Of a stretch of 64,000 nucleotides of DNA, positions 7,202 through 24,345 are shown in pieces. Numbering within the stretch: the first letter of the stretch is position 1; each line of letters begins with the position of its first letter. This DNA is from Alistipes sp. (GTDB taxonomy: Bacteria; Bacteroidota; Bacteroidia; Bacteroidales; Rikenellaceae): NCBI GenBank assembly GCA_017437045.1, contig JAFSBY010000040.1, positions 157,150 to 221,149 on the forward strand. Direction: 5' to 3'. Position numbers and translations under genes: made by a program. The notes beneath the pieces are model-generated. The model ran no database searches and was not told where the DNA came from. It saw only the letters and a program-made list of their open reading frames with translations.

Positions 7202-8500
7202 ATGAGTAAATTATTGAAAAAACTGCTCGTGGAGGATTGGGTGGTTGTGATGCTGTCGATTCCGCTTCTCGTCCTCTGCTACTTTGCAAACTACCTGCCC
7301 TCGATCTCGATTCCGACGAATATGCTCGAGGCGGGTGCCTGGGGTAAGATCGGCATGTTGGCCCTCATCGCGCTGGTGGCTCTCTTTGCCGGTAACAAAC
7401 TCTTGAGCCGTCCGATCAAGGGCATGCTGCTCTCGTTTATCGTGGTCTTTGCCATTGCTGCGTTGGCTATGGTCATCGGTAGCAATAAGTTCATCAAGAG
7501 CGACCTGGGCCTGGAGCCGGTATTCTTCTCGGTGATCTTTGGTCTGATCATTCGCAATGCCTTCCATGTGCCGGAGTGGATGAAGCCGGCTATTCAGGGC
7601 GAGTTCTATATTAAGATCGGTGTGGTCTGCCTCGGTGCTACGATCATGATTGGTGACGTGATGAAGTCGGGTGTGGCCGGTCTGGTGCAGGCTTGTGTGA
7701 TCGTGACGATCGTATGGCTCTTTGCCTACATCGTGGCGCGCAAGATCTTCAAGGTGGAGCGCTCGACGGCGATGACCATGTCGAGTGGTCTTACGATCTG
7801 CGGTGCTTCGGCAGCTATTGCAACGGCCGGTGTGGCCGGTGCCGATAAGAAGAGCCTTTCGTATATCGTGTCGGTCGTATTGATCATTGCCGTGCCGATG
7901 ATCTATCTGATGCCCTGGTTGGGTAATTTGATTGTGCCCCTGCTGACCGATAATCCGGATGTGCAGCAGCAGATTATGGGTGCCTGGATCGGTGGTACGG
8001 TCGATACGACCAGTGGTGTAGCTGCTTCGTCGGAGATGGCCGGTGAGATGGCCAATCAGACGGCTATCATTGTGAAGGCTACGCAGAACGTGCTGATCGG
8101 TGTGGTTGCCTTCTTCATCGCCTTGTATCTTTCGACCAAGGGCGAGAAGGGTGCCAGCCATAGCCCTTCGTTGAAGATCGTATGGGAGAAGTTCCCGAAG
8201 TTTGTCTTGGCGTTTGTGATTGCTTCGCTCGTATTCTCGTGGCTCAAAGAGGCTGATCTGTTGGCTCTGAATCCGAAGGGTAAGCCGATTGCCACCTCGC
8301 TTGCCAAGACCCTCTCGACGCTCTTCTTCTCGTTGTCGTTTGTCTGCATCGGTCTCGATACGCGCCTTAAGGAGATCGTGTCGAAGGAGAATCGCAATGT
8401 GCTCTATGCCTTCTTGACGGGTCAGGCCTTCAATATCGTGGCTACGTTCCTCGTGGCTTGGTTGTTGTTCGGCTATGTGAAGCCGTTGCTGGGCTGGTAA
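7202..8500 (+). CDS. YeiH family putative sulfate/anion exporter
   Basis: 432 residues, about 11 predicted membrane segments, family PF03601 (Cons_hypoth698, YeiH). Recognisable parts are the GLIIRNAF and KIGVVCLGATIMIGD regions, the glycine-rich SSGLTICGASAAIATAG segment and the WIGGTVDTTSGVAAS motif followed by VKATQN, all strongly conserved in the family. Family members are annotated as sulfate exporters, with firm evidence only for a few taurine-linked proteins. It follows the porin by 35 bases and ends at a strong terminator. Membrane inner-leaflet protein; substrate uncertain. Confidence 0.88.
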   Translation: MSKLLKKLLVEDWVVVMLSIPLLVLCYFANYLPSISIPTNMLEAGAWGKIGMLALIALVALFAGNKLLSRPIKGMLLSFIVVFAIAALAMVIGSNKFIKSDLGLEPVFFSVIFGLIIRNAFHVPEWMKPAIQGEFYIKIGVVCLGATIMIGDVMKSGVAGLVQACVIVTIVWLFAYIVARKIFKVERSTAMTMSSGLTICGASAAIATAGVAGADKKSLSYIVSVVLIIAVPMIYLMPWLGNLIVPLLTDNPDVQQQIMGAWIGGTVDTTSGVAASSEMAGEMANQTAIIVKATQNVLIGVVAFFIALYLSTKGEKGASHSPSLKIVWEKFPKFVLAFVIASLVFSWLKEADLLALNPKGKPIATSLAKTLSTLFFSLSFVCIGLDTRLKEIVSKENRNVLYAFLTGQAFNIVATFLVAWLLFGYVKPLLGW

Positions 8501-8520
8501 GAGTAACCGCTATACACACA

Positions 8521-8554
8521 GAGAGGGTGCTAACTCAAACGTTAGCACCCTCTC
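8521..8554. terminator. Bidirectional terminator between yeiH-type gene and GH95
   Basis: Perfect 14-base stem GAGAGGGTGCTAAC / GTTAGCACCCTCTC with loop TCAAAC lies between two convergent genes. It is related in sequence to the terminators at 13406 and 37129. Confidence 0.85.
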
Positions 8555-8572
8555 TGGTTTTGTCCATCATGC

Positions 8573-11047
8573 TTACAGCCACTCGATCTCGGGCAGCTGC
8601 CAGTCGGATACCACCTCGCAACGCTGGCCTGTCTGGCTCTTAATGCGGAGGCTCTTGATGCGACCCTGCTCCCAGCTCATCTCGATCTCGTAGCCGCCTC
8701 GTGCCTTCAAGCCGCGGATCGAACCGCTATGCCACGCTTTCGGCATGGCGGGCATCAATCGAATCTTGCCCTCGTGGCTCTGCATGAGCATCTCGCAGAC
8801 ACCGGCCGTGAAACCGAAATTGCCGTCGATCTGGAAGGGCGGGTGGGCATCGAAGAGGTTGGCATAGAGACCGCCACCATCCGATTGCAACGCCTCGGGG
8901 CCAAAGCCTACGGGTCGCAGCAGGGTGCCGATGAGCTTAAAGGCGCGCTCGCCGTCCATCAGACGTGCCCACAGATTGATCTTCCAGCCACTCGACCAGC
9001 CGGTAGCCTCGTCACCACGCAATTCGAGCGTCTGGCGTGCTGCGGCAAACAGATCGGGCGTCGAAGGGTTGATCTGCCCAAAGGGGTAGAGGCTCACCAG
9101 ATGGGTGACGTGGCGGTGGTGCGGGTCTTGATCCTCGTAATCCTCGCGCCACTCTTGCAGACGACCACCCTTACCGATGCGGAAGGGGAGCAGGTGGGCC
9201 AGACGATCGCGCAACGTATCTTGTAGGCCGGGATCTAAATTGCCCATCTCGGCCGTAGCCAGCGTGTGGGTAAACAGATCGCGGATCATCGACATATCGC
9301 CCGTCGAGCCTTGCGAAACGCCGCAACTTTGGTTCGTGCCGGGGATGATGAAGAGATTCTCGGGCGAGGTGCTGACCGGTGTGATGTAGTAGCCCTCCTT
9401 ATCGCGGATGAGCCAGTCGATGTAGAATCGGGCTGCTTCGCGCATTGTCGGATAGGCCTCCCGGAGTAGGAAGTCGCGGTCGAGCGTATAGGCGTAGTGC
9501 TCCCACAGGTGTGAGGAGAACCAAGCGCCCATCATGGGCCAAAAGACGGTGGCTGCACCACCATCGTTGGGGAAGGTCTCGCGCCAGATCGAGCAGTTGT
9601 GGTGCCCTACCCAGCCACGGCGGTGATACATCTTGCGCGCCGTCTCACGACCCGTCTCGGCACACTCGCCAATCATCTGTAGGAAGGGCTTGTGACACTC
9701 CGAGAGGTTGGTCATCTCGGCCGGCCAGTAGTTCATCTCGACATTGATGTTGGCCGTGTAGCCGCTGTTCCACGAAGGAATCAGATCTTTGTTCCAGATG
9801 CCTTGCAGGTTGAGCGGTTGTCCCCCTTCGCGCGAGCCACTGATCATCAGGTAGCGGCCATATTGGGCCAAGAGGGCCACCAGAGCCTGGTCTTTCGGAG
9901 CACCGGTTTGTCGCGTAGCCGTGGCATAGCGCAGGATGCGCTGGTCGGTGGGCAGCAGCTCCGCCTCGGGATCAGCGGGTAGCGTGAGGGCAAAACGGCC
10001 AAAGAGGGCGCGGTAGTCGGCCTCGTGGGTGGCAAGCAGCTCGTCGTAGCTCTTTTTGCGCACCTGCTTGAGGTAGCCTTCGGCCAATTTGGCGGCATCG
10101 AGACCCTCGCGCGACGGACTCTTGTGGGGGCCGTTGTAGCTCGTTGCGGCCGAGAAGATCAGAACAATCTCCCGAGCATGGCGGATGCGCAGACGATCGC
10201 CCAGGTCGGTCACCTCACCTTTGGGGTCGATGACGCGTACCTCCAGACGTCCCTCGAAGAACATGCCCATGCCGTCGATATCCTCGCCATAGAGCACACG
10301 CGGCTTACCCGTGCGTGAGCCATCCTCGTTGAAGAGGTAGCGGTGGCGAGCCTCGTGGCCCCACGCCTCGAAGTCGGAGTAGTTGCGACGATCGACACGC
10401 CCGGGAGCCTGCCCGCTGAGCGAGAGGGTGCGACGACGGGCATCAATCAGACTCTTTGCAGGGTGCAACGACGAGAGGCTGAGGCCGATATCCCAACCTA
10501 CGGGGCAGTTGGTCGTCAGTCGCATGACGATCACCTGATCGGGATGCGAAGCGAAGATTTCGCGGCGGAATTGGTAGTTGTCTCGCTCGTATTGTACGGT
10601 AGCTACGGCACGCTCCAGATCTAAATAACGACGATAGGCCTTGGCCTTGCCCCCTCGGAAGTCGCGCAGGTGCCAATCCCCGAGCGGTTGGTAGCATTCG
10701 TGCAGTCGTCCGGTCCACTGCTTGAGCAGCTCGGCCGCCTCCGCATGACGCCCCTCCTCCAACAGACGTACCATCTCGGGATAGGTCGGAGTGATGTCCA
10801 GATCGGTGAAACGCGTAGCCGGCTCACCGCTATAGAGGGTGTTCTCGTTGAGTTGTAAGAGCTCGTTGTCGGCATCGCCGAAGATCATGGCGCCCAGGCG
10901 TCCGTTGCCGATCGGCAGCGCAGCGTTCCAATCTGCAGCGGGTTGCTTGTACCAGAGTTTGAGTGCGCCGGCCTCTACGCGGTGGTGAGCCGTGGCAGGC
11001 AGCAGGATCGGGAGCAACAACGCAGCAAATAGTAGTTTTCGTAGCAT
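8573..11047 (-). CDS. Glycoside hydrolase family 95 (alpha-L-fucosidase)
   Basis: 824 residues from the ATG at 11047, which opens a signal peptide ([17 protein letters not shown]). It starts with the GH95 signature [24 protein letters not shown] and [14 protein letters not shown], continues with the (alpha/alpha)6 barrel containing [12 protein letters not shown] (paired Asn that activate water in GH95), STSPEN (region of the general acid Glu) and [11 protein letters not shown] (Asp). GH95 enzymes mostly remove alpha-1,2-linked L-fucose from host glycans; some act on L-galactose of plant xyloglucan. Secreted to the periplasm or surface. No SusC/SusD pair is present beside it, so it is an orphan relative to normal polysaccharide loci. 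It is divergent from the cyclophilin gene. Confidence 0.93.
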
Positions 11048-15221: not shown

Positions 15222-15773
15222 CTACAGGTGTCGCTTCACCACTGCCGGATTGCCGGCTACCAGCACATCGCTCGGTACGTCGCGCGTAACTACGCTTCCG
15301 GCGGCGACAATCACGCGATCGCCAATCGTGACTCCCGGGCAGACGATCACGCCCCCTCCGAGCCAGCAATCCTCGCCAATCGTGATCGGATAGGCCGTCT
15401 CCTTCGTCTCGCGGCGCAGGACGTGATCCTTCGGGTGGCTGGGCGTGTAGAGCTGGCAATTCGGCCCGATGAGCGTATTCCGCCCGATCGTCACCCATCC
15501 GCCATCCAAAATCGTACACCCATAGTTCAAGAAGGCCCCCTCGCCTAACCGTATGCCGTGGCCGTGGTCGCAATGAAAGGGCGGGCAGATCGAAGCCGAT
15601 GCCGGAATCCCCGGTATCAACTCCTCCAACAACGGGCGACACTCAGCATCATAGGGGCTCACCGTCTGCAGCCGTGCACACAACTGTTTGGCATGGCGCA
15701 GCGAGGCGTCAATTTCGGGATCCGAGAAGTCGTACAACTCCTCCGATCGCATCTTTTCGATTTCACGTTTCAT
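15222..15773 (-). CDS. Maltose O-acetyltransferase-like hexapeptide protein
   Basis: 183 residues, the normal size for Maa/NodL-type acetyltransferases. An N-terminal Mac domain (MRSEELYDFSDPEI) precedes a left-handed beta-helix with hexapeptide repeats (ILDGGWVTIGRNTLIGPNC, ITIGEDCWLGGGVIVCPGV) and the closing VAGNPAVV. The catalytic His is probably in YTPSHP. Transfers acetyl from acetyl-CoA to a sugar hydroxyl in the cytoplasm; exact acceptor unknown. It starts 43 bases after the LytTR regulator on the same strand and may be its target or operon partner. A stub of a close relative lies at 14604-14666. Confidence 0.9.
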   Translation of the reverse strand: MKREIEKMRSEELYDFSDPEIDASLRHAKQLCARLQTVSPYDAECRPLLEELIPGIPASASICPPFHCDHGHGIRLGEGAFLNYGCTILDGGWVTIGRNTLIGPNCQLYTPSHPKDHVLRRETKETAYPITIGEDCWLGGGVIVCPGVTIGDRVIVAAGSVVTRDVPSDVLVAGNPAVVKRHL

Positions 15774-15816: not shown

Positions 15817-16182
15817 CTATCGTGACTGACCGATATAGAGCTCCTTCAGATTCTTCAGCGCATCCTTCGAGATATCGAGTGTGAAGGCAAATTGCTCGCC
15901 ATCGCTCAAGATCAGCTTTTGTCGCTGCACCTGGATCTGGTAGAGGTACGCCAGATTCACGATATACTTCTTGCCCACGCGGGCAAAGATCGAGGCCTGA
16001 TCCTTCAGACGCTCGCTGAGCACCTGCTGCATGTGGGTCAGATTCATGCAAATGACCCCTTTGAGTTGGTTTTTCAACACAATATTCGTGTAGTTGCCGT
16101 CCGACTCGAAATAGACAATCTTCGAGACATCGATACGCAGATACTCATCGCGCGAATTGAGGTGAAGGTAGATGTTTTTCAT
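15817..16182 (-). CDS. Stand-alone LytTR DNA-binding regulator
   Basis: 121 residues from the ATG at 16182; another ATG at 16215 adds 11 basic residues and overlaps the presumed -7 box TATCTTTA (16212-16205). The whole protein is one LytTR domain (PF04397): YFESDGNYTNIVL, the helix around FARVGKKYIVNLAYL and the closing strand. There is no receiver domain, so regulation by a histidine kinase is not encoded here. Such single-domain LytTR proteins often autoregulate or act with a membrane partner. Probably controls the acetyltransferase downstream. Confidence 0.85.
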   Translation of the reverse strand: MKNIYLHLNSRDEYLRIDVSKIVYFESDGNYTNIVLKNQLKGVICMNLTHMQQVLSERLKDQASIFARVGKKYIVNLAYLYQIQVQRQKLILSDGEQFAFTLDISKDALKNLKELYIGQSR

Positions 16183-16356
16183 CCGTTTTCGGGTTTTTGT
16201 TCGATAAAGATACAACTTTTTTCCGAGAAACCCAAAGCACCGCCACTATCGAATAATTTCTTCGCTCGGCCGACCGGCCGACGGCTTGATTGCTTACCCC
16301 CCCCATCGGCACAAACGATCAGCGCGACCCGATGGCGTTCGGGGTGTGAGAAAAAA

Positions 16357-16384
16357 TCAGCGCGACCCCGAAAGGTCGCGCTGA
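16357..16384 (-). terminator. Terminator of the kinase operon
   Basis: Perfect 11-base stem TCAGCGCGACC / GGTCGCGCTGA, loop of six, followed on the minus strand by six T. Its GCGCGACC core recurs in the terminator at 22414-22437 at the other end of the five-gene operon. A partial extra arm (AGCGCGACC) lies at 16321. Confidence 0.85.
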
Positions 16385-16416: not shown

Positions 16417-18414
16417 TTAAAAAGCGGAGACGGCGCGCACATAGTTGTAGTTGCTCTTATTGGCGTTGTAGGGGTAGCCATCGCCCATATTGACATACCA
16501 CGCGCAGGAATAACCGGAGTATTGACGATTCTCCTCCGTCGAAGACCAATAGCTCTTGGTCTCTCCCTTGTTGTATAATCTCGTACCCCCTTTGGCCGCT
16601 AAAGTACGATTTACAGCGTCGTGTACGCTATTATTCAGCGTAAACAGTTCTAACTCCTCGATAGCGGGCAGATACCAACCCGAACCTAAATTGGCACACC
16701 AGGCAAAGGCAGGATAGTCCGCACGCCAATTCGGGCGTTGCTGGACGGCTTGCATATTGGCTGCGCCATCTGTTTCGCTGGAGGCTCCGATCAGCTGTTT
16801 TTGTTCGCTCGTATTAGATGACCATTCCAATTCTCCACTCGATTGGGTCATGCTGACAATCTTGCCATGTCGGCCCGAGGCATCCACATAGAAAACCACG
16901 CCCTCTTTACCATTGACATTGTAGTAGTCACCTACTCGGTAAACACCGTCTCGTCCTTTTCCTGCATTGACCATTGGAGCAAAACGTTCCTCTGTTTCCT
17001 TTTCAGCTGCCTCACGCGCTTCGCGCTCACGACGCTCCTTTTCAGCCTTTTCAGCCGCTAATCGCTCTTGCTCGGCCTTCTCTTTGGCAGCTTTCTCCTC
17101 GGCTAACCGTTTCTCCTCGGCTGCTTTCTCTTTGGCCAACCGCTCCTTTTCGGCTTTTTCAGCCGCAGCATTGGCTTTCTCGGTGCTATCTTGAACAAAA
17201 GCGGCACGTTCGGCCTCCGCCAGAGCAATACTATCAGCAATGGCTTGTTGCTCGCGGAGGTGGGTCATGGCGGTGCGGCCGCCCCAGAAACCAGCGGCTA
17301 CCAACAACAGAATCACTATCGTCCATAACCATTTTTTGGATCCCTTTTTCTTGGGGGTAGGGGTGATGGGATGCTCCTTGACTGCAGCCGATTGAGGTGC
17401 CGATTGTGGCGCAGGTTGTGGTGTAGGTTGCGGTTTTGGTTGCGGTGCGGGCTTGGGTGTGGGTTTAGAAGTCGATTTCGGAGTCTCGTCCACGGCTGTA
17501 GCCTCGACGGCAGGCTCATCGAACGAGGTCTCCTGCTCGTTCGCAGAAGCGGCAGGGGTCTCCAGGGCCTGCAAAAAGTCCGCCACCGAGCTGTAGCGGT
17601 CGCGCTTGGCGGGCGACATGGCGCGGCGAATGGGGGCAATAAGGTTTGCGGGGATTGTGGCAGGGAAGGTCAGCTCCTCGTTGATCAGTTTCGGGGCTTC
17701 GGTCGGGGTCTCGCCCGAGAGCAGGTAGTAGAGCGTAGCTCCGAGGGCATAGATGTCGGTCTCGGGGCTGAAGAGGCTGACACCGCCCGTATTGTATTGC
17801 TCCATCGGGGCGTAGCCGTGCGAAATGCCCACCGGGGTCGAGGTGGTTTGGTGACCTCCCTCGTCATACTGCTTTGCCAATCCAAAGTCGATGAGTGTCG
17901 GCTGACCGGTTGCCTGCGAGAGCATGATGTTGGCCGGCTTCACATCGAGGTGGTTCATCTTCAGGCCGTGGATGTAGCTCAAGGCATCGCCCACGCACCG
18001 CACCAGGTGCAGGGCACGCGCTGAAGCCAAGGGCCCTTCACGACGGACAAGCGCCGAGAGCGACTCGCCCTCGATGTAGTCCATGACGTAGTAGGCCGTA
18101 TCGTTCTCCTCGAAGATGTCGTGAATCTGCACAATGGCCGAGTGCGAGAGGCGCGAGATATTGCGGGCCTCCTTGATGAATTTGAGGCGGAATCGCTCGA
18201 CCAGCTCGGCCGCACTGAGCGTGCCCAGTACGACGCGGCTGGTGGAACTATCGCGGTTGCAGAAGCTTTGGGGGAAGAACTCCTTGATGGCCACCCGCTT
18301 GTCGAGCATCGTGTGGCAGGCCAGGTAGGTGATGCCGAAGCCACCTTGTCCCAAGACGCGCTCGATGCGGTATTTGCCACCCAGGAGGGTCTTTCCAATA
18401 GCAAGCGTACTCAT
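16417..18414 (-). CDS. Transmembrane Ser/Thr protein kinase with Lcl-like domain
   Basis: 665 residues. Kinase domain about 13-275: glycine loop GQGGFG (22-27), VAIK Lys44, Glu82, catalytic loop HLDVKPAN (Asp157, Asn162) and DFG (176-178). The Arg of the usual HRD is Leu, so this is a non-RD kinase, but all catalytic residues are there. A Pro-rich linker (about 315-345) leads to one membrane segment (about 357-376), then a charged Ala/Glu/Lys coiled coil (about 405-475), then an Lcl/DUF1566-like C-terminal domain (about 485-665; YYNVNGKEGVV, WYLPAIEEL, YWSSTE). The kinase should be cytoplasmic and the Lcl-like domain outside the inner membrane, as a sensor or wall/glycan-binding part. Last gene of the operon with PP2C, FHA, caspase-like and EF-hand proteins. 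Confidence 0.92.
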   Translation of the reverse strand: MSTLAIGKTLLGGKYRIERVLGQGGFGITYLACHTMLDKRVAIKEFFPQSFCNRDSSTSRVVLGTLSAAELVERFRLKFIKEARNISRLSHSAIVQIHDIFEENDTAYYVMDYIEGESLSALVRREGPLASARALHLVRCVGDALSYIHGLKMNHLDVKPANIMLSQATGQPTLIDFGLAKQYDEGGHQTTSTPVGISHGYAPMEQYNTGGVSLFSPETDIYALGATLYYLLSGETPTEAPKLINEELTFPATIPANLIAPIRRAMSPAKRDRYSSVADFLQALETPAASANEQETSFDEPAVEATAVDETPKSTSKPTPKPAPQPKPQPTPQPAPQSAPQSAAVKEHPITPTPKKKGSKKWLWTIVILLLVAAGFWGGRTAMTHLREQQAIADSIALAEAERAAFVQDSTEKANAAAEKAEKERLAKEKAAEEKRLAEEKAAKEKAEQERLAAEKAEKERREREAREAAEKETEERFAPMVNAGKGRDGVYRVGDYYNVNGKEGVVFYVDASGRHGKIVSMTQSSGELEWSSNTSEQKQLIGASSETDGAANMQAVQQRPNWRADYPAFAWCANLGSGWYLPAIEELELFTLNNSVHDAVNRTLAAKGGTRLYNKGETKSYWSSTEENRQYSGYSCAWYVNMGDGYPYNANKSNYNYVRAVSAF

Positions 18415-18450
18415 GGTATAAGTAGGGTTAATCGGTTTTGCGGCAGGGGA

Positions 18451-19905
18451 TTATTCCTCCTCCTCTTTCTCATCATCTTCGTCGTCGGGCTCGTCGGCAG
18501 CGAGAGCAGCAGCGGCTGCCTCCTGCTTTTGCTTGAGCTTATTGGTCGTCTCCTTGGCTTGCTGCTCGGCCTGTTTTGCCGCTTGTTCAGCCTGTTGAGC
18601 CGCGTTTTGGGCCGCCTGCTCGGCGTTTTGCACAGCCTGCTCGGCGTTTTGGGCGGCCTGCTGAACAGCCTGCTCGGCATTTTGTACAGCCTGCTCGGCC
18701 TCCGACGCGGCCTTCGACGCAGCCTCCGAGGCGTTCGTGACGGCTTGCTCCACCATTTGCTGGGCATCCGGCATGGCCGGCTTCTCCTCTTCGGTAGTGC
18801 CCTCCATGGCTTTCGGAGTGCCTTTGGCCGATTTGCTCTGTCCTCGCGATGGTGAGCCGGTGAACTCCTTCTTGATATCGGATTTACTCAAGCGGGTATA
18901 GAGGTAGAAACCGCCACCGCCACACAGCAGGGCCATGAGCAGAATCAAGAGCCAGATCATCGGATTGGACTGCGGCTTCGCGGGCTTCGTGGGCTGCTTC
19001 GTCGGGGCAGCCTTCGTCGGGGCAGCCTTCGGACGTACGGTCGGACGGGCGGCCGGACGGGGCGAGGGCGAACCATACATCACCGCGATGCGCTCCGGTT
19101 GGGGGGCGGACAGCTCGAGCACCTCGGGCGTGCCAATCACCTCGTCGATGCGCACCAAGACGGCCGTGTGGTTGTCGTGGTTTTGCTCCGTGACGCGGAT
19201 CAGCATGTCGGCCTTCTGCGCCAGGTTGCCCGTCTTTTCGGAGAAGATATATTGCAGATTCTCATCCTCCATCTGCTCCAAGATGCCATCCGAGCACATC
19301 AGGAAATAGTCGCCGGCAGCCAGGTCGCTCGTGTGGTAGATGTCGGCCTTCGGACGACGCTCCATGTTGGGCTGCATGGCTCGCGTGATGACATTCTTAT
19401 GGGGCGAGGTCTTGGCCTCCTCGGGCGTAAGCTCCCCGACGCGCACCAGGTCATTGACCAACGAGTGGTCGGTGGTTTGGAACAGAATGCGGGTCTCGGC
19501 AGCCGTAGCACCCGAGCGGATATGATAGACGCGGCTGTCGCCGATATGGGCGATGGTGCAACCTCCGCTGTGGAACTTCAGGAAGGTCATCGTCGTGCCC
19601 ATCTTCTTGGCTGCGCCATTATCTTTGCTGTCGAGGGCATCGAATGCCTCGGAGAGGGCTTCGCGGAACTGATCGTCCGTAAAGGGGCCCTCGGCATTGG
19701 GCACATGGGCCAAGATGGCGTGTCCCATCGCCTCGGCTACGGTGCTGCTGGCTATATCGCCCGCATCGTGGCCGCCCATGCCGTCGCAGAGGACAAAGAG
19801 ACGGTCCTCGGCCGTGATCTTGCCATAGGGCGGGAAGATCGAATCCTCTTGGCGGGCACGCTGCCCCAGCTCCCAGATGTTACAGGCCTGTAATTTTAAT
19901 TTCAT
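18451..19905 (-). CDS. PP2C-type Ser/Thr phosphatase with membrane segment
   Basis: 484 residues. PP2C domain about 1-250 with the metal-binding motifs ARQED (Asp21), LCDGMGGHDAGD (Asp41), IGDSRVYHI and CSDGILEQ, so it looks active. A Lys/Pro/Ala-rich linker (about 280-315) precedes one membrane segment (about 318-340). The C-terminal third, outside the membrane if the phosphatase is inside, is a long Ala/Gln/Glu coiled coil made of AEQAVQN-type heptads (about 395-460) with an acidic Glu/Asp tail. It lies 36 bases before the kinase gene, whose phosphorylation it presumably reverses. The heptads are coded by 21-base DNA repeats that could vary in number. Confidence 0.92.
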   Translation of the reverse strand: MKLKLQACNIWELGQRARQEDSIFPPYGKITAEDRLFVLCDGMGGHDAGDIASSTVAEAMGHAILAHVPNAEGPFTDDQFREALSEAFDALDSKDNGAAKKMGTTMTFLKFHSGGCTIAHIGDSRVYHIRSGATAAETRILFQTTDHSLVNDLVRVGELTPEEAKTSPHKNVITRAMQPNMERRPKADIYHTSDLAAGDYFLMCSDGILEQMEDENLQYIFSEKTGNLAQKADMLIRVTEQNHDNHTAVLVRIDEVIGTPEVLELSAPQPERIAVMYGSPSPRPAARPTVRPKAAPTKAAPTKQPTKPAKPQSNPMIWLLILLMALLCGGGGFYLYTRLSKSDIKKEFTGSPSRGQSKSAKGTPKAMEGTTEEEKPAMPDAQQMVEQAVTNASEAASKAASEAEQAVQNAEQAVQQAAQNAEQAVQNAEQAAQNAAQQAEQAAKQAEQQAKETTNKLKQKQEAAAAALAADEPDDEDDEKEEEE

Positions 19906-19929
19906 GGTAGTTGCAATTTTTGTGAATGG

Positions 19930-20514
19930 TTACAAACCGGTATGTGGCTCGTCGTTAATCTCGAACCGTAGCACCGTATCGGGCAGACGCAGGAGGTCGC
20001 CCGAGCGCAAGATGACGCAATCGCCAAATTCGAGGCGCACGTCATTGACAAAGGTAGCATTGCAACGCTCCTTGTAGAGCGAGGCGTAGTGCACCAACCC
20101 CTTGCCCGGCACCTCTTTGGCCTCGATGACCAGATGCTCGCGGCTCAAGCGGTTGCTCGAGACCACCTGGACGGTTGCCGACGAACCCTCGGCTTTGCGT
20201 CCGACGACGTTGCGACCCATCTGCAACGGATAGCGCTCGGCTGCGGCCGTCAGGGTCAGAAGATAGCCCAATTGGGTATTCTTCGTGCCCCCATAGTGGG
20301 TCGGGCCCTCGCCGCCGTATTGGGTGCGCTCGCTGCCGCCATACTGCGTGCCCGGCTCGGCCTCCTCGCGCACGCGTTTGTAGGCCGTGAAGGGAGATTT
20401 CTCCTTGCAGACAGGGCAGGTGATCGACTTTTGCTCAAGCCCCGGGATGTTACTGTTGAGCTTGAGCGTCACACCGCAATGGGGACACTTGATCTTTATG
20501 ATTGATTCTTCCAT
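19930..20514 (-). CDS. Zinc-ribbon FHA domain protein
   Basis: 194 residues. The N-terminus is a zinc ribbon (CPHC at 10-13 and CPVC at 33-36), followed by a short Gly/Tyr/Gln linker with three repeats of the type TQYGG (56-60, 64-68, 72-76 as THYGG), then an FHA domain from about 85 with the phospho-threonine-binding signature: GRNVVGRK, SSNRLSREH (Ser124, Arg125, His127) and an Asn in FVND. It should read phosphothreonine made by the adjacent kinase. The linker threonines in TQYGG/THYGG are themselves good candidates for the phosphorylated sites. Cytoplasmic. Operon position: between the caspase-like and PP2C genes with gaps of 18 and 24 bases. Confidence 0.92.
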   Translation of the reverse strand: MEESIIKIKCPHCGVTLKLNSNIPGLEQKSITCPVCKEKSPFTAYKRVREEAEPGTQYGGSERTQYGGEGPTHYGGTKNTQLGYLLTLTAAAERYPLQMGRNVVGRKAEGSSATVQVVSSNRLSREHLVIEAKEVPGKGLVHYASLYKERCNATFVNDVRLEFGDCVILRSGDLLRLPDTVLRFEINDEPHTGL

Positions 20515-20532
20515 GGTTTTCGTTTGTTAAAA

Positions 20533-21264
20533 TTACCACTGCATGACCGTCATCGTGTGGGGGAAGTTGCCCCACATGACCGGATGTTGTTGGTCATCCG
20601 TGATCCGCACGACCTGGTTGTGTACATAGTCGAACAACTCGCGGGCCGTGATGATGCGGTTCCGATTTTTGTCGGCACCACCGCGCAATCCTCGCTCCAG
20701 ATAGGTCGTGAAGAAGCCATTCTTCATGCCGGGATTTTCGAGGGAGTACTCGTTGCTCCGCGATGAGAGAAAGAGCATCACATTGGCCCGTTTGGCAGCA
20801 TTCACCTCGCTCTGTGACGAGCGTTGCTGTTGGCGAATCCTGCCCGAGAAGCAGGCATCGGCAAAGACCATCTTGTTGCGCGATTTGCTGCGCGCCATCG
20901 CTTTGCGAATCTCCTGGTAGCTCAATCCGCCATCATAGAGGGCAAAGGCCCCCGGATAGCCGTGGCCACTGAAGAAGAATACGACGATGTCATTGGGTCC
21001 TGCCACCGCATACAGGCGGTTCATCGCCGCACGCGTGGCGGCTACCGTCGCCCGCTGATTGAGCAGCTGGATCGACTCGACTCCGGTGTTGCGGTTGTAG
21101 AGCTGCGTGATGGTTTGTGCATCACGGGCCGGCAGTCTCAGGTCATTTTTTGTGCCCGGGTAATCGGCTATACCGACTGATACCAGGTACACCTTCGAGA
21201 AGGTGTACGCCGGTATCAGCAGGATAATGAGTAACAGAATCAGACGGCGATTATACCATGTCAT
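20533..21264 (-). CDS. Caspase-like (peptidase C14) protein with signal anchor
   Basis: 243 residues from the ATG at 21264 (another at 21279 adds five residues). A hydrophobic N-terminus (about 8-22) is a signal peptide or anchor. The caspase p20-like fold follows: VYLVSVGIADYPG, ARDAQTITQLY, the catalytic His in FFFSGHG (His101) and the catalytic Cys in FADACFSG (Cys138), then the C-terminal LSSRSNEYSLE and GFFTTYLERGL parts. Both dyad residues are present, so proteolysis is expected; bacterial relatives (orthocaspases, metacaspases) cleave after Arg/Lys or Asp. The start overlaps the end of the EF-hand gene by 14 bases, which suggests coupled translation. The leader implies action at or outside the inner membrane, unusual for a death-type protease. 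Confidence 0.9.
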   Translation of the reverse strand: MTWYNRRLILLLIILLIPAYTFSKVYLVSVGIADYPGTKNDLRLPARDAQTITQLYNRNTGVESIQLLNQRATVAATRAAMNRLYAVAGPNDIVVFFFSGHGYPGAFALYDGGLSYQEIRKAMARSKSRNKMVFADACFSGRIRQQQRSSQSEVNAAKRANVMLFLSSRSNEYSLENPGMKNGFFTTYLERGLRGGADKNRNRIITARELFDYVHNQVVRITDDQQHPVMWGNFPHTMTVMQW

Positions 21265-22204
21265 AACCCGTGTCGGCATCGTTTACATAGTCGGGCTCAC
21301 CCTCGTAGGAGGCATAGGTAGGATCCTCCACACCGGCTGCCGCAGCTACATCGGCCACCGACAGGTTCTCCTCCGTGATATCCACGATCTCGTTGTCGCT
21401 GATCTCACCGTCGTGGTTGGCGTCGGCCACCAAGGCGTCGAACGTACCGTCGGTATCCACATCGATGAGCAGTACCTCCTCACCGTCCACCGTCACAGCA
21501 CCTACCGTGCCCAGTTCCTCGTCGTGAACTACGCCCAGGATCTCCACCTCGGGATCAACTTCAGCTACGGGCTCCTCAATAGTGGGCTCCTCAACAACAG
21601 GCTCCTCAACGACAGGCTCCTCAACGACAGGCTCCTCTGCGGCAGGCTCCTCTGCGGCGGGCTCCTCTGCGGCAGGCTCCTCCGGCTGGGGCTCAACCAC
21701 CTCACCATCGCCATCTACGGGCTGTACATCAGCCTCTGAGCGGTTATTCCAGTTGAAGTTGTCCTGATAAGCCTCACGCTCCTCGGCGGTCATATTGGCC
21801 CACTCGTCAGCCGTATAGGTGCCATAGACACCACCGCGCCACTCGAATGCACCACCCGGGCCTACCTCTGCGCGTGCTGCGGCAAAGGCCTCGCCGAACG
21901 ACATCTCGTCCGTTACGCCCGTAGCAACAGCCATTGCCTCCTGCGCCCACTCCGGAACTACCTCATCGACCATCTCCTCGGCCTCCTCGGTCAGCTCATC
22001 GATCATGGCCGTCGTACCAAACGAGGTCAAACCACCGATCAAAATACCGGCACCTACGCCAAGGGCTACCTTACCGGCTACGCCACCCTTCTTGGGCTCC
22101 TCTTTTACCTCTTCGGCGGCCTGCTCCTGCAGCTGCTCGGGGGCCTCATTGACTGCCTGGTTCTCCATGCGCTCGTTGTCGTAAATAGTCTCTTCAGTTT
22201 TCAT
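21251..22204 (-). CDS. Acidic membrane protein with EF-hand and EEP repeats
   Basis: 317 residues; no named family. Layout: acidic N-terminus (1-40), one Gly-rich membrane segment (about 45-67), a conserved-looking module (about 100-150: MSFGEAFAAARAEVGPGG, FEWRGGVYGTY, DEWANM), eight five-residue EEPAA/EEPVV-type repeats (about 175-213), then two calcium-binding-like loops: a degenerate DVDTDG (249-) and a canonical EF loop DANHDGEISDNE (261-272). Very acidic overall. First gene of the operon with the caspase-like protein, FHA, PP2C and kinase; stop overlaps the caspase start. It may be a calcium-responsive substrate, scaffold or inhibitor for the caspase, which is inference. Confidence 0.8.
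   Translation of the reverse strand: MKTEETIYDNERMENQAVNEAPEQLQEQAAEEVKEEPKKGGVAGKVALGVGAGILIGGLTSFGTTAMIDELTEEAEEMVDEVVPEWAQEAMAVATGVTDEMSFGEAFAAARAEVGPGGAFEWRGGVYGTYTADEWANMTAEEREAYQDNFNWNNRSEADVQPVDGDGEVVEPQPEEPAAEEPAAEEPAAEEPVVEEPVVEEPVVEEPTIEEPVAEVDPEVEILGVVHDEELGTVGAVTVDGEEVLLIDVDTDGTFDALVADANHDGEISDNEIVDITEENLSVADVAAAAGVEDPTYASYEGEPDYVNDADTGYDMV
21570..21689. repeat. Eight 15-base tandem repeats inside the EF-hand gene
   Basis: Units of the type GGCTCCTCAACGACA or GGCTCCTCTGCGGCA, coding the EEPVV/EEPAA repeats of the acidic protein. In-frame units could be gained or lost by slippage without frameshift. Confidence 0.85.
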
Positions 22205-22256
22205 AGTTGTAAAATTTTAAGGTTATTAAATTGTGTTTATTTCCTGTTTCCGAAAG

Positions 22257-22264
22257 CAAAGATA
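22257..22264 (-). promoter_or_regulatory. -7 box of the five-gene signalling operon
   Basis: TATCTTTG on the minus strand, about 53 bases before the ATG at 22204. A -33 TTTG is not evident, so extra activation may be needed. The surrounding 330-base gap (22205-22534) also holds the 22414 terminator and an alternating GTACGCGTAC stretch near 22375. Confidence 0.55.
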
Positions 22265-22413
22265 GGGGGTAAATCTCCGTTTTCCTAACATTTTTGGCCA
22301 TTTTACACAAAACCCCCGGATTAATGTATGAAATTGCTCGTCAGCAAAGGATCTTTGTTTTTCCCCATCCCTACGTACGCGTACGCGCGTGAGTGCATCC
22401 CTATAAAAACATA

Positions 22414-22437
22414 AGCGCGACCCGAAAAGGTCGCGCT
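22414..22437 (-). terminator. Terminator after the FHA-like membrane gene
   Basis: Perfect 9-base stem AGCGCGACC / GGTCGCGCT, six-base loop, followed on the minus strand by TATGTTTTTA. Same core as the terminator at 16357. Confidence 0.75.
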
Positions 22438-22534
22438 CAAGGGTGTTATGCAAGAAGGCCTCCGCTTAAAATGTGGCGACGATACTTCTCATTCTGAAGT
22501 AGTGCTCCAATCGGCAGGTGTGACGTGGCGCAGA

Positions 22535-23305
22535 CTATTTCTCGTTGTACTTACATTTGCAATAAGGGCAGGTGTCGGCTTGAGCCATCAGGCGGTAGGA
22601 TTGATACCCCTTGAATCGACCACATTTGGGGTTCGGGCAGATGTACCGACGCTCGAAATCCTCCTTGATACGCTCGCGCTCGGCAATGCTATCATCCGAT
22701 TTGGTCTTATAAAAACCATAGAGCATAACGGCCAAACTGAGCACGGTGAAGATCACGGCATAGGGACGGATCGCATCGCCACCAAGCGTTGTCACCAAAC
22801 CACCAATCAAGGTGGGGACCATCGTTAAACGAGCCAGCAAACCGGTGTTGCGCTGCCGATACTGAATCTCCAACTCCTTCTTGTGGTAGTCGTCCCACAC
22901 CTTCTCTAACGGTTTGATCGAAAACTCCTGCGGCGGGGGAGGAAGCGTGCCGACCAACTTTTTGGAGGCCTCCAAAACCTGCGTCAGATTGAGCGGATAT
23001 TTGTCGCGCGAGAGGGCAATGTGGCTCGTCGGGTTGATCACTTTGGATTGAATCTCCACGCCATTGACCCAGGTGACATTCTGCGGTTTGATGTTGGTAA
23101 TCTTCATCACACCGGCCCCATCAATCTCGATTTTGCAGTGGGCAATCTCCTCGGCCGGTTGGCAACGGCTCACGCTGCCGGGGACGGACTGCACCTCACC
23201 GAGGAAGCCCGACTTGTATTGTCCAGCCAACTTCATGGCGATCTGCAAACGCCCGTTTTTAGGATCTTTTCCGATCAGAATGGTTTGATTTTTTAAGGTC
23301 TCCAT
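22535..23305 (-). CDS. Divergent FHA-like protein with two membrane segments and zinc ribbon
   Basis: 256 residues. N-terminal 1-105 looks like a divergent FHA domain: LIGKDPKNG, the SVSRCQ region where FHA proteins carry Ser-Arg, IAHCKIEI and TWVNGVEI; the usual His and Asn are partly replaced, so phospho-binding is uncertain. A Pro-rich stretch (121-125) and a helix lead to two membrane segments (about 158-175 and 181-199), then a charged helix and a C-terminal zinc ribbon (CPNPKC 223-228, CPYC 246-249). It has its own promoter (TATATTTG, minus strand, 23415-23408) and terminator, just upstream of the five-gene operon, and shares the FHA and zinc-ribbon theme of that operon. Confidence 0.75.
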   Translation of the reverse strand: METLKNQTILIGKDPKNGRLQIAMKLAGQYKSGFLGEVQSVPGSVSRCQPAEEIAHCKIEIDGAGVMKITNIKPQNVTWVNGVEIQSKVINPTSHIALSRDKYPLNLTQVLEASKKLVGTLPPPPQEFSIKPLEKVWDDYHKKELEIQYRQRNTGLLARLTMVPTLIGGLVTTLGGDAIRPYAVIFTVLSLAVMLYGFYKTKSDDSIAERERIKEDFERRYICPNPKCGRFKGYQSYRLMAQADTCPYCKCKYNEK

Positions 23306-23407: not shown

Positions 23408-23415
23408 CAAATATA
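23408..23415 (-). promoter_or_regulatory. -7 box of the FHA-like membrane gene
   Basis: TATATTTG on the minus strand, giving a leader of about 100 bases before the ATG at 23305. No clear -33. Confidence 0.5.
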
Positions 23416-23571: not shown

Positions 23572-24345
23572 ATGACAGCCCTGTTTGAAGAGGTGATTTT
23601 TGGTCCCGTGCGCTCGCGCCGTTTGGGCGTTTCGTTGGGGGTGAATCTGCTCCCGATTCACGCCAAGCTCTGTTCGTTCGACTGCATCTACTGCGAGTGC
23701 GGCTGGAATGCCGAGCGGCGCGGTCAGATGCGTTTCAACAGCCGCGAAGAGGTCCGCGAAGCGTTGGCTGCCAAGCTGATGCAGATGCAGGCCGAAGGCG
23801 TGTTGCCCGACGTGATCACCTTTGCCGGCAATGGTGAGCCGACGCTCCATCCCGATTTTGAGGCGGTGATCGACGATACGATCGCCTTGCGCGATCGCTT
23901 TGCCCCCTCGGCCAAGATCTCGGTGTTGTCCAACGCCACACAACTCCACCGCGCCGAGGTGGTGCGTGCCCTGCGACGCGTCGATAACAACATCCTGAAA
24001 CTCGATTCAGCCTTTGATGAGACGGTGCGACGGATCAATCGTCCGCAGCAGGCCTCCTACTCGGTTGCTCGCCTGGTCGAACAGCTCGGCTGCTTTGAGG
24101 GGGCTTTCATCCTTCAGACGATGTTTCTGCGGGGTTGTTGCGAGGGGGAGCCGATCGACAATACGACGCCTGCCGAGGTGGCAGCCTGGCTTGACATTGT
24201 TGCCAAACTGCACCCACGGCAGGTGATGGTCTATTCGATTGATCGGGATACGCCATGCCAAACCTTAGAGCGCGTCTCGCGCGAAGAGTTGCAACAGATC
24301 GCCGCGCAGGTCGAGGCGCTCGGTGTTGCCTGCTCGGTCGCCTAA
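23572..24345 (+). CDS. Radical SAM protein (COG0731-like)
   Basis: 257 residues. It opens with FGPVRSRRLGVSLGVNLLP, typical of the COG0731 group related to the tRNA wybutosine enzyme Tyw1, followed by the cluster motif CSFDCIYCECG (CxxxCxxC) near residues 34-41 and FAGNGEPTLHPDF, where Gly and Glu contact SAM. No flavodoxin domain is present. Substrate is unknown; bacterial members are usually unassigned. It has its own promoter and overlaps the convergent lipocalin gene by four bases at the stops, with no terminator hairpin between them. Confidence 0.88.
   Translation: MTALFEEVIFGPVRSRRLGVSLGVNLLPIHAKLCSFDCIYCECGWNAERRGQMRFNSREEVREALAAKLMQMQAEGVLPDVITFAGNGEPTLHPDFEAVIDDTIALRDRFAPSAKISVLSNATQLHRAEVVRALRRVDNNILKLDSAFDETVRRINRPQQASYSVARLVEQLGCFEGAFILQTMFLRGCCEGEPIDNTTPAEVAAWLDIVAKLHPRQVMVYSIDRDTPCQTLERVSREELQQIAAQVEALGVACSVA

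Follow-up and report, generated by a model that had tools for sequence, protein, structure and literature searches.

The 64,000-nucleotide stretch of Alistipes sp. DNA analysed here (hereafter the window; its source genome assembly comprises 2.22 Mb in 45 contigs) carries seven neighbouring genes that encode a Hanks-type Ser/Thr kinase, a PP2C phosphatase, two FHA proteins (FHA1 and FHA2), a caspase-fold protease, a LytTR protein and mot, a membrane protein of an undescribed family. Searches with a short motif of mot return the same neighbours in many other genomes. We lean modestly towards reading the set as a phosphorylation switch on mot that is read by FHA domains and tied to the exported caspase. 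The tie to an extracytoplasmic protease is drawn because the catalytic residues are kept, the caspase carries an export-type N-terminus, a threonine motif recurs in the tail of mot, and a distant relative fuses PP2C to the caspase. Each signalling step is an inference, and so are the direction of signalling, the preferred cleavage site and the purpose of the system; direction is the weakest point. In animals and plants, proteases related to this one carry out cell death, and animal caspases are activated by clustering on signalling platforms. In this bacterium a caspase-fold protease on the other side of a membrane seems to be coupled to a eukaryote-like kinase, a phosphatase and readers of phosphothreonine, and the coupling would run through mot as a clustering membrane protein.

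The first-pass annotation of the window had recognised six of these genes, at correct positions and all on the minus strand, and had described small gaps with one overlap; the gaps are indeed 36, 24 and 18 bases, and the mot and caspase frames overlap by 29 bases when read from the first ATG. It had overlooked the LytTR gene (Pfam E 3e-11), with which the set comprises seven genes. Along the minus strand the features are as follows.

23408..23415, minus strand: TATATTTG, putative Bacteroidota-type -7 element upstream of FHA2, picked by eye; overlapped by a weak sigma-70-type match
22535..23305, minus strand: FHA2, divergent FHA domain, two predicted membrane segments, C-terminal zinc ribbon
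22412..22439, minus strand: intrinsic-terminator-like hairpin of 12 pairs between FHA2 and mot, setting FHA2 apart from the five-gene operon
22257..22264, minus strand: TATCTTTG, putative Bacteroidota-type -7 element upstream of mot, likewise picked by eye
21251..22204, minus strand: mot, cytoplasmic tail with E-E-T-I-Y-D, glycine-zipper membrane segment (residues 41-59), 46-residue motif, acidic stretch, EF-hand loop DANHDGEISDNE
21779..21916, minus strand: the 46-residue motif (mot residues 97-142; also G000:C38:178928-179065), query for all searches
20533..21279, minus strand: caspase, exported metacaspase/paracaspase-like protease, His106/Cys143, with Asp53 and Asp141 at metacaspase acidic positions; Pfam Peptidase_C14 E 1.7e-18
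19930..20514, minus strand: FHA1, N-terminal zinc ribbon, linker with four T-[QH]-[YL]-G repeats, FHA domain, no predicted membrane segment
18451..19905, minus strand: PP2C phosphatase, predicted membrane segment 317-335, charged tail; Pfam PP2C_2 E 1.2e-12, NCBIfam Stp1-type match below cut-off
16417..18414, minus strand: Hanks-type Ser/Thr kinase, N-terminal kinase domain, predicted membrane segment 365-383, coiled region, C-terminal Lcl_C ectodomain
16357..16384, minus strand: intrinsic-terminator-like hairpin, 12 pairs then TTTTTT, 3' of the kinase gene; near-identical partner at 22412-22439
15817..16182, minus strand: LytTR, DNA-binding domain with no receiver domain, start at the ATG of MKNIYLHL; Pfam E 2.7e-11 on the longer frame 15817-16215

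The five genes from mot to the kinase are thus bracketed by two strong, near-identical hairpins. The GCGCGACC hairpin stands as a putative terminator at both of these sites, and elsewhere in the window there is none (up to 3 mismatches allowed). The -7 element of Bacteroidota has the consensus TAnnTTTG. Because hairpins follow FHA2 and the kinase gene, and -7-like elements precede FHA2 and mot, the genes probably form two transcription units: FHA2 alone, and mot-caspase-FHA1-PP2C-kinase. The LytTR protein, the probable transcription regulator of the set, is counted as part of the system because its gene immediately precedes FHA2 in 53 neighbour pairs among 89 loci (the basis of all neighbour-pair counts, three duplicates having been removed); the window's LytTR gene lies at the opposite end.

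Recurrence of the gene set

The search query was the 46-residue motif alone, with no other part of the set. In the order the motif is present in 14 of 393 genomes, with matches at E < 1e-18 followed by a clean gap to none, and in the phylum it is present in 5 of 395 genomes, the source genome counted. A wider contig scan gave 220 motif relatives, of which the best 80, biased toward window-like motifs and often on contigs that end early, were kept as 76 loci; their titles are those of Bacteroidota, save one 'Clostridium' metagenome-assembled genome bearing the same operon. Together with 16 loci from the genome searches these make 92, or 86 after removal of the duplicates L047, L049, L058, L060, L070 and L098.

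Within 8 kb of mot, the 86 non-redundant loci contain FHA1 in 81 cases, PP2C in 75, a kinase in 68, FHA2 in 67, a caspase in 59 and LytTR in 53, and 471 of the 475 set genes lie on the same strand as mot. Where at least 7 kb of sequence is available on either side (43 loci), the corresponding numbers are 41, 39, 35, 38, 32 and 33. The run mot-caspase-FHA1-PP2C is contiguous in 47 of 86 loci, and the usual order is LytTR, FHA2, (kinase), LRR_5 protein, 130-residue protein, mot, caspase, FHA1, PP2C, kinase(s). FHA2, mot and FHA1 occur together in all five loci taken from genomes further off in the class, with PP2C in four, a kinase in four and a caspase in two. We give hardly any credence to the idea that these are unrelated genes that happen to be neighbours: all parts but the motif come from large, common families, which would favour chance, but a search by motif alone returns the same neighbours across many genera and in constant order. 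The proposal of the first-pass annotation that the genes act as a unit stands, for the co-occurrence search shows no independent occurrence in relatives.

The core of the system is mot, FHA1 and PP2C. The caspase is a frequent module and not an obligatory one, because 27 of 86 loci (some on contigs that end early) have none within 8 kb of mot. Caspases as such are common: a caspase profile run over the same 393 genomes gives C14-like matches in 108 at a threshold of E 1e-20. Its 11 best matches, at 230-361 bits, come from 10 of the 14 motif genomes, each no more than about 8 kb from the motif, and the others reach at most 211 bits, a gap flattered by the profile having been built from 15 cluster caspases that are partly these same ones. 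The pairwise distances of caspase, FHA1, PP2C, FHA2 and LytTR agree with one another (r 0.69-0.85; largest permuted value 0.31), as expected for co-inheritance. A further stand-alone caspase, that of G163 (206 bits), has FHA2 on one side and FHA1-PP2C on the other and is next to a mot-like protein that lacks the motif. The mot-like protein of L119 (9522-10472, minus strand) has a membrane segment and an acidic EF-hand-like end and no motif, and its cluster retains LytTR, FHA2, caspase, FHA1 and PP2C.

Among the carriers are the cultured species Bacteroides caecigallinarum, B. bouchesdurhonensis and Segatella copri, the last with a locus that lacks a caspase within 8 kb. Occurrence in common gut genera, cultured species among them, makes the system amenable to deletion tests.

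Two further exported proteins recur and adjoin mot where present: an LRR_5 protein of about 350 residues (29 of 86 loci) and a 130-residue protein without a Pfam family (25 of 86). The pair lies upstream of mot, for example at 8099-9160 and 9185-9568 in L050; neither gene was found in the window. Such neighbours would suit a role in the control of the surface or of secretion (adhesion, matrix or export), in which the caspase would be a maturation protease, mot would organise the surface and the LRR_5 protein would belong to the cargo, and kinase/PP2C/FHA logic governs the type VI secretion system (T6SS) elsewhere, as PMC3953482 describes. The lack of both genes from the window tells against such a role, as does the T6SS sheath protein VipB/TssC (PF05943), which was matched in none of 19 cluster-bearing genomes, although the control search matched 1 of 14 named genomes (E. 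coli) and sensitivity to a Bacteroidota-type T6SS was not shown. We regard surface or secretion control as doubtful. T6SS control in particular was set aside on the strength of this same test, limited as it is.

Mot, its partners and the caspase

Mot has no relevant Pfam match. Among the first relatives its best-conserved part is the 46-residue motif (consensus VxDxMSFxEAFAAARxEVGAGGxFEWxGxxYGTYYAxEW) rather than the EF-hand by which it had initially been described. No Pfam EF-hand match supports that description, but a loop of the form D-x-[DN]-x-[DN]-G-x-[IV]-x3-E, 12 residues long, occurs in strict form in 35 of 92 mot proteins (shuffle mean 0.1, largest 2) and in loose form in 54 of 92 (shuffle mean 0.7); that calcium is an input is a guess. 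Ahead of the membrane segment, the tail motif [DEN][DEKNTAS]T[IVLMFRQYK][IVLYFW] is found in 69 of 90 proteins (shuffle mean 4.2, largest 10), with position +3 mainly Asp or Glu. Its strict form [DE][DEKNQ]T..[DEG] is found in 36 of 90 (shuffle 2.2) and only once among the stretches after the motif. The membrane segments themselves contain GxxxG in 78 of 82 cases (shuffle mean 48.8, largest 58), versus 12 of 103 for kinases and 5 of 62 for PP2C. Two motif copies in one mot, or two mot genes per locus, were seen in L029, L059, L064, L067, L077, L083, L115 and L118.

The window kinase matches Pfam Pkinase at E 1e-36 and Lcl_C at 1e-10. Its catalytic residues K44, H155, N162 and D176-F177-G178 are invariant across 59 aligned cluster kinases (58 of the 67 listed, plus the window's). 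The ectodomains of these 59 comprise FGE-sulfatase (7), Lcl_C (4), PEGA (2), FKBP (1) and TonB_C (1), and most have no family at the threshold used; the Lcl-like domain once suggested as the input is one of several such ectodomains. FHA1 (Pfam FHA E 4e-6) is predicted to bind phosphothreonine, as its binding-core residues G105-R106, S124-R125, H127 and N152 are invariant in 4 sequences, and its linker carries T-x-[IVLYF]-G in 28 of 82 proteins (shuffle 7.7, largest 16). That FHA2 is a divergent FHA-like protein with its own zinc ribbon is borne out: Pfam FHA falls below the curated cut-off (E 0.005), and an alignment with 8 relatives displays an FHA core and four invariant cysteines. With G12, S46, H56 and G82 invariant among the 9 sequences, FHA2 too is predicted to bind. 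To our knowledge, targets of bacterial threonine kinases in this phylum are mostly unknown, and the tail of mot offers a named candidate substrate site.

The caspase retains the dyad reported earlier, with the numbering corrected from His101/Cys138 to His106/Cys143 when counted from the first ATG. His106 and Asp141-Ala-Cys143 are kept in 62 of 62 caspases and Asp53 in 61 of 62 (a few of those compared lie outside the mot-adjacent slot), so that it is predicted to be an active C14 protease; 59 of 62 have a hydrophobic export-type N-terminus. An AlphaFold2 model (pLDDT 88.5, pTM 0.85; 15-row alignment) was matched by Foldseek to GSU0716, MALT1 (E 2e-11, TM 0.67-0.69 on query), metacaspases (E about 1e-9) and legumain. 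The nearest solved relatives by sequence profile are metacaspases (metacaspase-4, E 1.8e-10), with whose ND and DSC residues Asp53 and Asp141 align. In metacaspases these acidic residues line the S1 pocket and confer a preference for Lys or Arg. Orthocaspases likewise cleave after positively charged residues, according to PMC6426788. The cluster caspase is accordingly predicted from its residues to cut after Lys or Arg. A single protein of 521 residues from a more distant Bacteroidota genome (L121 7372-8937, minus strand) joins a PP2C domain (residues 11-246) to a caspase domain (275-517). Outside the system, the closest relatives of the cluster caspase are WD40-repeat proteins fused to a caspase domain (G034, G152, G250; L025 8106-9791).

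The ectodomains of mot are poor in basic residues where a caspase is near: Lys+Arg make up 1.6% with a caspase nearby (n=59) versus 3.2% without (n=27), and 37 of 59 versus 6 of 27 ectodomains have at most 4 such residues. The depletion holds in each of four GC bands, and no such difference was seen in the cytoplasmic tail (p 0.55) or in FHA1 (p 0.17). In a phylogenetic regression on a 70-locus tree with at least 13 changes of caspase presence, the effect is smaller but persists (slope -0.0085, t -2.8). It fits a Lys/Arg protease sharing a compartment with the mot ectodomain.

Taken together, the parts suggest the following switch. Receptor kinases with varied extracytoplasmic domains would sense the state of the envelope or the surroundings and phosphorylate mot on threonines of its cytoplasmic tail (window sequence E-E-T-I-Y-D); threonines of the FHA1 linker would probably be targets too. 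FHA1, and probably FHA2, would bind the phosphothreonines and, together with the glycine zipper of mot, bring about mot clustering; the clustered ectodomains, with their 46-residue motif and EF-hand loops outside the inner membrane, would recruit or activate the exported caspase. PP2C would reset the switch and LytTR would set expression. The earlier suggestion of a threonine switch controlling a membrane-side protease thus survives as the best reading, but not with the protease as an obligatory output.

Several points weigh against this switch. Loci without a nearby caspase would need another output; the strict tail pattern is absent from 54 of 90 mot proteins, and the tail patterns, like those of linker and zipper, were framed post hoc from the first sequences; topology was assigned from hydropathy alone. 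The agreement of distances may have its source in shared descent alone, and the stretch between the domains of the PP2C-caspase fusion has no membrane segment above the hydropathy threshold, so that the fusion speaks for a link between the two domains, not for their topology. Finally, Arg15 of the motif is kept in 95% of cases with a caspase (n=69) and in 100% without (n=31). A candidate specific act of the caspase, the cutting of mot at this arginine, was rejected because its conservation is no lower without the caspase.

Signalling might instead run from the outside in: a caspase triggered at the envelope would cut mot (or the LRR protein), the FHA proteins and kinases would read the change and LytTR transcription would follow, with the caspase as input. 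That the mot and caspase genes are overlapping or adjacent (53 such pairs, with a median gap of -4 bases) suits an enzyme and its partner; Lys/Arg-poor ectodomains would leave few cut sites; and LytTR belongs to the set. Yet Arg15, the most conserved basic residue, is kept equally without a caspase, the depletion suits protection from a protease just as well, and the kinase ectodomains already supply an input; we consider this direction unlikely.

Accessory occurrence and phage relatives of the motif

The set is accessory. In the genus relative G024 only 4 bases separate the acetyltransferase gene from the radical SAM gene, the two that flank the set; in the window (15222-15773 and 23572-24345, respectively) the distance between them is 7.8 kb, and the acetyltransferase gene is inverted. 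FHA2 is present in 2 of 25 same-genus genomes, and the copy in the same-genus G011 sits at a different site, next to what we take to be GMP synthase and IMP dehydrogenase genes. The radical SAM gene was rejected as a member of the system, being found in 2 of 86 loci. Radical SAM/SPASM-type genes lie near some clusters (L056 1726-2787; L058 14943-16458, beside a small membrane protein with YGG motifs; L103), where peptide modification is possible.

A phage or plasmid home for the set was rejected: the caspase was unmatched in the phage collection and the motif unmatched in plasmids. The motif does match 28 viral contigs (L127-L154), in proteins other than mot. With E values scaled to a million sequences, a bacterial profile recovers it in 24 of the 28 at 1e-6 or below. 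These values are flattered, since part of the motif had served to select the contigs, and several contigs are near-copies; the other half of the motif, not covered by the selection pattern (F-x-W-x-G-x2-Y-x-T), is retained in most of them. Annotated phages gave weak matches (E 0.09-8), among them a gene between the head-tail connector and capsid assembly genes of Rhizobium phage RHEph01 and the 'tail lysozyme' of a crAss-like phage. The phage relatives of the motif (SFxEAFxxARxExGxGxxFxWxGxxYxT) include L156 2995-3495 and L155 1507-3927. Neither Pfam nor PHROG has a family over the motif in ten phage proteins, and its likeness to that of mot may reflect common descent or a shared binding motif. 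One sequence labelled bacteriophage, MT838606.1 (L157), was dropped as phage evidence: its mot motif hardly differs from the one in Segatella copri locus L100, and it is probably a misassigned contig.

This distribution could point to an anti-phage or conflict system, in which the set would detect infection at the envelope and the caspase would kill or disable the cell. Its occurrence is patchy in the order and in the genus (there by FHA2), it is present or absent at a shared site, and phage proteins contain relatives of the motif; bacterial caspases and kinase-phosphatase sets can act in conflict, as PMC7159879 and PMC11341870 set out. PADLOC, however, found no matching system: the kinase match was generic (PD-T4-6 E 1e-51, mad6), that of the caspase weak (E 1.7e-9), mot and FHA2 had none, and PP2C and FHA1 none specific. 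A known defence system was rejected for want of a system-specific set, the flanks not having been systematically surveyed for defence genes. The conflict caspases surveyed in PMC7159879 occur with vWA, MoxR or EACC1, none of which is present here. An exported protease, LytTR, a secreted LRR protein and kinase ectodomains of the FKBP or TonB_C type suggest envelope physiology, and a conflict role seems to us improbable. More speculative still is an envelope checkpoint, where a phage protein with the same mini-domain would compete with or join mot at entry, the phospho-switch would register the change and the exported caspase would be the executioner. Though a long shot, it would amount to caspase-based cell death or immunity run by threonine phosphorylation across a bacterial membrane.

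Comparison with known systems

No named system that we tested fits the set, in which every domain save the motif is already known, and the open literature searched (subscription journals and preprints lay outside its coverage) contains no description of it. A close parallel to the favoured phospho-switch is the threonine pathway of the T6SS (PpkA/PppA/Fha/TssL), where binding of an FHA protein to a kinase-phosphorylated threonine in the cytoplasmic domain of a membrane protein is established, as PMC3953482 reports. Common to both, on the same account, are a receptor-type kinase, a PP2C, an FHA reader and a threonine in the N-terminal region of a membrane protein as FHA ligand, and here too kinase, PP2C and FHA1 are encoded together, in the window and in 64 of 86 loci. 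Unlike the T6SS pathway, the present set has an exported caspase among its outputs, and mot is not TssL-like by Pfam.

KKP resembles the set in clustering kinases with a phosphatase and in involving FHA, but it requires a CSD kinase and an FHA-fused kinase and is prophage-borne, according to PMC11341870; here there are separate FHA proteins, an Lcl_C kinase, mot, a caspase and LytTR. The window kinase has neither KKP kinase feature; of the 59 cluster kinases one carries FHA, and the 21 families listed for them do not include CSD. The vWA-MoxR ternary and GTPase-centric conflict systems likewise count caspases, FHA, kinases and PP2C among their parts, according to PMC7159879. The first-pass annotation had seen no vWA domain, and Pfam agrees, with no vWA, MoxR or GTPase family in nine window proteins.

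As to the single proteins, PknB and Stp1 are the best NCBIfam models for the kinase (181 bits) and PP2C (162 bits), both under their cut-offs of 450 and 230; unlike PknB/Stp1 pairs, the present ones have no PASTA domains and have different partners. The nearest named NCBIfam model for the caspase is the EACC1-associated caspase NF047832 (E 2.5e-23), yet its 82.7 bits compare with a cut-off of 140, and NCBIfam scans of the window proteins gave no EACC1 neighbour. With metacaspases, the paracaspase MALT1 and orthocaspases, the cluster caspase shares its fold, sequence profile and acidic-residue positions; it differs from them in being small, exported and encoded in an operon with a putative phospho-switch.

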